DNA from: Amycolatopsis jejuensis
Lineage (GTDB): Bacteria > Actinomycetota > Actinomycetes > Mycobacteriales > Pseudonocardiaceae
Direction of reading: 5' to 3'
Length of the DNA stretch: 19,839 nucleotides
NCBI RefSeq assembly: GCF_000717335.1
Contig: NZ_JNYZ01000062.1
Location: forward strand, 1 to 19,839
Shown one piece after another: positions 3,697-4,659 of the stretch. Both the position numbers and the translations under genes were made by a program. The first letter of the stretch is position 1. Every line of letters begins with the position of its first letter. Below the pieces are notes generated by a model, which saw only the letters and a program-made list of their open reading frames with translations, was not told the origin of the DNA and made no database searches.

Positions 3697-4659
3697 TCAC
3701 GACGCCTGGGTGTTCGGATGCTGGGTGCTCCCCAGCGGAGTCTGCCCGGTCCCCGGACGGTACCGCCGTCCGACCGGGCGAAGATGCCTCCCGGCTGCGG
3801 CTGCCCGGCCCGCATGTAGCACCAGCCGGACCTCGCCGGACACGCTTTCCTGGGCCTGCCGGACGAACGCGTCCAGCGGCCGCCGCAGCGGCGAGACCCA
3901 CAACCCGTCGGACACCAGCTCGGCCCATCGCCGGTCGACGCCGTGCTTGAACCTCGCCAGGTCACGATCGAGCGTGATCGCTTCCAGCTCCCGGTGCGCC
4001 GCAATCAGCGCTGCAGCGCCGGGCGCCTCATGGCTGACCTGCCCTTCGAACCGGCCGATGCCGTGCGCACCGGCGCGATGCCCGAGCCGCTGCACCGCCT
4101 CGGCCACGCGCACGGTCTCGCCGTCGACGGCGATCGGGACGCCGCGCTCGAAGGTGACGACGACCTCGTCGGGCACGCCGAGGTTGACTGACGCGTCCTC
4201 GGTGCACTCCCACTGACCGACGCTGCGTCCCCACAGCGTGCGGCTCGTCGACAGATGCGGCGTCCTCGCGTGAACCCGGATCCCGTTGGGGACAAGCACA
4301 TCCCGCGCCTTGGTCAACGGGTGGACTGTTTGGGTGTCGTGTTCTCGCGCAACCGCACCAAGATGCTTTGCCAGCAACGGCCGGGCCAGCGATGCCACCA
4401 GCGGATGCCCGTCGACGACCAAGGCATTGGCCTGCAACGCAGGCAGGCAGTAGCCGTTGGCGAACTCCTCGCGAGCGTCCACCACGACGACCTCGGCAGC
4501 ACCTTCGGAAACCGCCCGGCGGCGGAGCGCGCAGAAATCGACGTCTCCGGCACCGAAGTCGACCGCGACGGCGATCACGTCGGCCTGCTCGGCGAGAAGC
4601 TTCAGCGCGGCGGAAGAACCATGCCCACCCGAATAGGCGAGCACGACCCGCCGGGTCAC
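3697..4659 (-). CDS. argG: Argininosuccinate synthase-like protein lacking catalytic motifs (possible pseudogene)
   Basis: Position in the cluster and many blocks ([89 protein letters not shown]) show descent from argininosuccinate synthase, which joins citrulline and aspartate using ATP. It is only 320 residues, against about 400 for normal ArgG. The ATP-binding SGGLDTS signature is SGGHGSS. The GCTGKGNDQVRFE block for citrulline/aspartate is absent, with about 34 residues missing near residue 113. Two more short in-frame gaps follow, one near 147 and one removing VGIKSRE near 206. The terminal SLYDFNLATY region is replaced by unrelated sequence after about residue 290. The GTG start at 4659 has a GGAGGA site 5 bases upstream. 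The frame is open throughout, so it is either an in-frame decaying gene or a non-synthase derivative. Confidence 0.8.

Follow-up and report, generated by a model that had tools for sequence, protein, structure and literature searches.

The window, a 19,839-nt stretch of Amycolatopsis jejuensis DNA, carries on its minus strand an arginine operon in which the NCBIfam models identify argC, argJ, argB, argD, argF and argR, then a remnant of argG, then argH. An earlier note on this DNA held that the reduced gene occupies the correct argG position, and its place between argR and argH, with argF, argD, argB, argJ and argC also adjoining, bears this out. The features of the locus are listed below.

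3697..4659, minus strand: argG remnant of the long form, a catalytically incomplete type-I argininosuccinate synthase of 320 aa (ORF list, Pfam and NCBIfam, alignment)
4324..4650, minus strand: remnant of the HUP (ATP-binding) N-terminal domain, PF00764 positions 1-111 (101.9 bits)
4612..4632, minus strand: former P-loop SGGLDTS, now SGGHGSS, residues 10-16 (alignment)
4234..4323, minus strand: shortened stretch, residues 113-142, made shorter by loss of the linker and of the GCTGKGNDQVRFE block (alignment, profile mapping, structure model)
3784..4215, minus strand: what is left of the C-terminal (synthetase) domain, spanning PF20979 positions 28-181 (137.9 bits)
4069..4170, minus strand: hairpin 1 and helix 1, residues 164-197, kept in 15 of 16 remnant lineages (profile mapping, model, regional dN/dS)
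3700..3792, minus strand: replacement C-terminal tail, residues 290-320, common to the long forms (alignment, frame comparison)
4624..4833, strand.: tandem repeat with a period of about 111 and 1.9 copies, upstream of the remnant and holding a diverged copy of its 5' end
4901..5401, minus strand: argR (arginine repressor), the upstream neighbour and synteny anchor
2256..3668, minus strand: argH (argininosuccinate lyase), the downstream neighbour, 28 nt past the remnant stop

The frame of 320 codons at 3697-4659 (minus strand) is confirmed as open in the ORF list, and the losses that the earlier note had described hold up in an alignment of 37 rows, made up of the window gene and 36 relatives. 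SGGLDTS has become SGGHGSS, the HGCTGKGNDQVRFE substrate block is absent along with most of the stretch that follows it, VGIKSRE is gone with the whole VEDRLVGIKS loop, and from about residue 290 onward another sequence stands in place of the original C-terminus. The gene still matches both ArgG Pfam domains (PF00764 at 100.7 bits and PF20979 at 139.1 bits, cut-off 27 each), and it matches six NCBIfam ArgG-type models without reaching the cut-off of any, the best score being 217.8 bits against 334; for TIGR00032 it is 188.2 bits against 268.2. In the predicted structure (mean pLDDT 80.4) the ArgG fold is kept, with a TM-score of 0.79 (by query length) to 4u7j. Confidence in the model is low at residues 115-132 and 290-320, with the tail under a pLDDT of 50.

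The start of the window gene is ambiguous. Homologues favour a GTG at 4659, as does the GGAGGAG stretch that lies shortly before it; the frame also remains open through the repeat expansion (4624-4833) as far as an ATG at 4929, a start that overlaps argR and gives 410 aa. At the other end, the new tail opens with GRHLRPV, which is the other-frame reading of intact genes at the matching place, a short match that is exact or nearly so in the eight intact genes. Because of this match, one old frameshift probably belongs to the history of the C-terminus. A sequencing artefact was considered as the cause of the long form and ruled out, as 14 other Amycolatopsis genomes carry it.

The labels type I and type II are used here for PRK00509-like and PRK05370-like ArgG, respectively. 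When the whole genome (G000; 10.1 Mb in 136 contigs) was searched with PF00764, only two matches were obtained, the window gene and a complete gene on contig C30 that scores 847 bits against the 657-bit cut-off of the PRK05370 equivalog. One of the two readings in the earlier note was a slowly eroding gene backed by another argG, and the note counted a genome with no other argG, in a prototrophic strain, as evidence to the contrary; the search found a second, complete ArgG of a different subfamily. Judged from sequence, the remnant is almost certainly enzymatically dead and backed up. Across the genus, a type-II match is present in 74 of 80 genomes, read by hand (that of G013 covers only positions 1-180 of 219). 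The six genomes without a type-II match have one match each, and all six are among the eight with an intact type-I gene. Type-I-like ArgG domains were also seen away from the argR locus, at G069:C33:275773-276420 (227.6 bits) and G096:C59:10469-11119 (276.8 bits).

The argR gene was matched in 79 of the 80 genus genomes, and the stretch from argR to argH was taken for all 79. Eight of these loci hold an intact type-I gene, 58 hold open shortened remnants, 12 are empty, and one (G061) has a type-II replacement. The remnants comprise 15 long forms of 320-360 aa, the window gene included, two of 298 aa, 17 of 117 aa and 24 of 84-113 aa, and there are many in-frame deletions among the long forms. 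On the tree the 12 empty loci amount to five changes, four of them forced by well-supported branches, and such repeated complete loss shows that the role of the remnant is dispensable, not essential. In G061 (L111), a member of the same genus, the type-I gene between argR and argH has given way to a type-II ArgG.

All 58 Amycolatopsis remnants have an open frame, and they fit closely between their neighbours. In 57 of them the start overlaps the argR stop within 10 nt (for the window gene the GTG lies at +242 or the ATG at -28), and in all 58 the end lies at most 43 nt before argH or overlaps it. No off-frame type-I segment was found in the 58 at the profile threshold, below which the shifted tail of the long form falls. 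In the 12 empty loci the gap between argR and argH is still short, at 2-84 nt. Each of these observations would suit a translational-coupling spacer, in which the open frame serves solely to let ribosomes run from argR to argH so that argH escapes polarity; any product that folds and does no harm would then suffice, and the deletions would tend to leave the smallest unit able to fold.

Two trees were built by quick searches with SH-aLRT support only. In the midpoint-rooted genus tree the 117-aa group stands beside the intact group. In the tree with other genera added, the long, 117-aa and ~100-aa Amycolatopsis groups belong to a single 62-row clade (SH-aLRT 94), and erosion in Amycolatopsis may therefore have begun once. 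Since the 298-aa form groups with the ~100-aa group, the 117-aa and ~100-aa forms shrank separately. The multi-genus tree includes seven rows without argH, the estimated argH start probably being out of frame, and its placement of G211 is a long-branch artefact. G076, whose argH looks broken, was excluded from this tree and from the argR/argH rate comparison. In that genome (L056) argH appears as two tblastn pieces and has a long branch, through an assembly error or in reality.

Among the other genera of the family, 160 genomes were searched with PF20979 and 80 were chosen for an argR search; most of these had type-II or multiple matches, and six with an intact gene were added. The 60 argR regions obtained, from 59 of the chosen genomes, are not a prevalence sample; they comprise 13 intact genes, 26 remnants and 21 loci classed as lost. 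The lost class includes G115b (an argR copy with no argH nearby), G145 (a 368-nt gap with no match) and G211 (L136), in which only the two ends of the ArgG gene are present, SGGLDTS kept, fused in frame to ArgR with no stop between. G115 (L122, L123) has two argR copies about 6 kb apart, and argH lies in the fetched stretch of only one. Remnants occur in seven genera besides Amycolatopsis (g30, g38, g41, g43, g44, g47 and g56), among them an 88-aa form in seven genomes of a Lentzea-type genus (g30) and a Kutzneria-type form (g41). Their starts overlap the argR stop in 22 of 26 cases, again in keeping with a coupling spacer, the exceptions being G227, G123, G160 and G124. In G160 and G123 (L162, L163), 1.5-1.8 kb separates argR from argH and ArgG pieces are found only in the later part; in G209 the pieces lie in two frames. 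Because intact copies exist in g41 and g43, and a full-length type-I match in two g38 genomes, erosion started separately in these three genera unless intact genes were regained.

Remnants were separated from intact copies by profile score, a score above 700 marking an intact copy (family set). The motif SGGLDTS, the substrate-block pattern G[KR]GND and the pattern GIKSR of the VGIKSRE loop are each present in all 21 intact copies and in none of the 84 remnants. The loss of all three catalytic motifs, the many in-frame deletions in the long forms and the repeated complete loss are each consistent with a neutral, slowly eroding pseudogene whose frame has stayed open by chance as stops are rare at high G+C.

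One part of the protein is shared by almost all of the remnants. A hairpin-1 pattern is found in 82 of the 84, the exceptions being G161 and G124. When the remnants are mapped on the intact profile, columns 221-240 are kept by 15 of 16 lineages and columns 161-200 by about two, and a rotation null for the shared core, with one lineage per genus, gives P = 0.0027. Two lineages break the rule: G124, which has only a weak piece (columns 297-330), and G211, with its two ends fused to ArgR. The shortest forms in several genera have one hairpin-helix block of ~36 columns in common, and three also retain a second hairpin; hairpin 1, helix 1 and the second hairpin are kept in the 117-aa form, the 88-aa form and, by its alignment, the ~100-aa form. 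Five of the seven long lineages lack about 142-147 to 190-215 of the profile columns and end at 352-376. Of the other two, g44a lacks only 185-213 and ends at 389, and g47 has its break at 148-173 and ends at 364. No ATP-domain match was found at threshold in the 117-aa, ~100-aa, 88-aa, g41 and g56 forms, and part of this domain is retained in the shortened lineages g38b, g43c and g43d.

The invariant positions of the short forms concentrate in the same place, as 11 of the 17 invariant columns of a 30-row alignment fall within hairpin 1, a segment of 16 residues. Structure prediction gives the 117-aa form as a compact bb-aa-bb domain (mean pLDDT 78.8, pTM 0.71, 18 residues under 50). The model matches the ArgG C-terminal domain, and its eight Foldseek matches at E<=0.001 are all ArgG.

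The second reading of the earlier note was that the gene has been kept for a non-synthase role, and dN/dS was proposed as a check. The computed values point to purifying selection on the remnant protein sequence, so that both parts of the note's interpretation, the backup and the retention, are supported. By the NG86 method, dN/dS is 0.313 for the 117-aa form, 0.307 for the ~100-aa form, 0.341 for the 15 long forms, 0.243 for eight sister long forms and 0.417 for the 298-aa pair. The corresponding values are 0.03-0.08 for argR and argH from these genomes, and 0.10 for intact argG. In neutral simulations using the spectrum of fourfold sites, 60 each for the 117-aa, ~100-aa, eight sister long and intact groups, dN/dS stayed at 0.93 or higher throughout. 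The window gene itself gives 0.25-0.38 against its 14 long-form relatives. Higher NG86 values were obtained for the Kutzneria-type g41 form (0.455, n=4), g56 (0.376, n=3) and g38 (0.601, n=2), and the 88-aa form, at 0.111, is as constrained as argR of the same genomes (0.131).

Maximum likelihood estimates of omega are 0.148 for the 117-aa form, 0.115 for the ~100-aa form (a set trimmed to the 87 codons filled in 60% of rows), 0.053 for the 88-aa form, 0.121 for the Kutzneria-type form, 0.130 for the 15 long forms and 0.129 for the eight sisters. The reference values are 0.024 for intact argG and 0.015 for argR of the 117-aa and ~100-aa groups, so by this measure the remnants are less constrained than either. 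A test against omega = 1, in which kappa was taken from a grid of four values, gives 2dlnL of 116 to 1071 for the remnant sets.

The third codon position takes a share of 0.51-0.58 of the changes in the long, 117-aa and ~100-aa forms and 0.49 in the 298-aa pair; in the neutral simulations this share does not exceed 0.35. The 117-aa form has the same length in 17 of 17 genomes, with no indels in 351 nt, whereas the spacer of about 30 nt behind it varies from 29 to 31 nt and has several. The 88-aa form is likewise ungapped in 7 of 7 genomes. In a wider protein database the former also occurs at 112 and 113 aa (two clusters) and the latter ranges over 87-93 aa. With purifying selection of this kind and dN/dS far below 1, the window gene is not a neutral pseudogene; we give that account very little chance of being right.

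The selection is unevenly spread along the protein. In both the long and the 117-aa forms it is strongest on hairpin 1, where dN/dS is 0.09-0.10 compared with 0.07 in intact ArgG. Constraint on the ATP domain is relaxed in the long forms, at 0.34 in the 15 and 0.26 in the eight sisters against 0.08 in intact copies. Hairpin 2 is weakly constrained in the long (0.53) and ~100-aa (0.75) forms, and its value in the 117-aa form is 0.20. In the ~100-aa form hairpin 1 has a dN/dS of 0.24 and helix 1 of 0.08.

An open frame required only for ribosome passage would not predict dN/dS well below 1 or a hairpin held as tightly as in the active enzyme, nor would it predict that 17 of 17 genomes share one length or that the 88-aa form equals argR of its own genomes in constraint by NG86. 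Foldability alone would not favour hairpin 1 over hairpin 2, and complete deletion was available and happened repeatedly. Preservation of the frame was probably helped by the need for translation to run into argH, but continued translation alone fails to explain the amino-acid constraint, and we regard the coupling spacer as an unlikely full account of the remnant.

In eight sister genomes (L034-L038, L040-L042) the 3' end of the long remnant has a very low dS, 0.014 in hairpin 2 and 0.092 in the tail, perhaps reflecting a signal for argH or a recent exchange. This low dS speaks for a DNA- or RNA-level element overlapping the frame, such as an internal promoter, an attenuator or an argH translation signal. 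Over the whole gene, however, the dS of the remnants is similar to that of argR and argH, dS in hairpin 1 is not reduced (0.73 in the long form and 0.25 in the 117-aa form), and the constraint falls on amino acids. Such an element may add to a protein-level explanation at the 3' end without replacing it; as the sole explanation we rate it slightly below even the neutral pseudogene.

It is very likely, on the evidence of these substitution patterns, that the remnant is selected as a protein. We favour the reading that the window gene descends from type-I argininosuccinate synthase and is now a pseudoenzyme, backed up elsewhere in the genome and kept for a protein-level role; we assign this reading a probability of roughly 0.78. 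Under it, catalysis would have moved to the type-II ArgG, after which the catalytic loops would have been shed along with the C-terminal region and, outside this lineage, sometimes the ATP-binding domain as well. A small folded core of the C-terminal domain would have been retained for a non-catalytic binding role, and selection would still act on a protein, above all on hairpin 1 together with helix 1 from its former C-terminal domain. The retention of this core in several relatives suggests a second role of the enzyme.

A binding role in the arginine pathway would fit, because the gene sits between argR and argH and a non-catalytic folded core survives. Our tentative and rather doubtful proposal is that the remnant docks to a protein of this pathway. 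The first candidate partner would be ArgH or the type-II ArgG, with docking or scaffolding of the last two arginine steps, and the second would be ArgR. With somewhat better odds, though still short of even, the remnants could represent a new small-protein family, cut repeatedly from the ArgG C-terminal domain after takeover by the other subfamily. Its members, translated between ArgR and ArgH, would act as adaptors or regulators. If so, evolution would have repeatedly split a non-catalytic function of ArgG from catalysis and kept only the former.

These loci form a natural and partly replicated experiment, in which the same enzyme became unneeded in several lineages and the same small piece was kept by many. 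They suggest that argininosuccinate synthase has a second role, so far unrecognised, which could be tested in a protein of 88-117 aa. There is also a practical consequence for annotation. The short forms (88-117 aa, without catalytic motifs) are often named argininosuccinate synthase in databases, and some are called hypothetical or otherwise; the former name would mislead pathway reconstruction. A literature search, limited to the listings of one paper collection, found no description of these argG remnants.

The closest known system is type-I argininosuccinate synthase itself (ArgG, PF00764 plus PF20979; PDB 4u7j and 1j1z), with which the remnant has in common its overall fold, its position between argR and argH, and above-cut-off matches to both Pfam domains. 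The enzyme has SGGLDTS, the GKGNDQ block, the VGIKSRE loop and the original C-terminus, whereas the remnant lacks all four and remains below the NCBIfam equivalog cut-offs. The PRK05370-type ArgG on C30 is expected to catalyse the reaction that the remnant has lost and is its likely functional replacement; unlike the remnant, it is a separate and complete gene of the other subfamily, elsewhere in the genome. NCBIfam argG_rel (NF038212) and the nitrile synthetase ArtA (PDB 9leh/9lei) are related to ArgG, are not ArgG or not called so, and have the same overall fold as the remnant. The window gene, however, scores 142.8 bits against the argG_rel cut-off of 425 bits, and ArtA is named a synthetase whereas the remnant is without catalytic motifs.

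Retained pseudoenzymes in general are copies that have lost catalysis yet remain under purifying selection while an active enzyme is also present. The present case differs in that the active enzyme comes from another ArgG subfamily and the dead copy has been reduced, in several genera, around one small core. Within this known class, its distinguishing feature is the parallel reduction around the same core.
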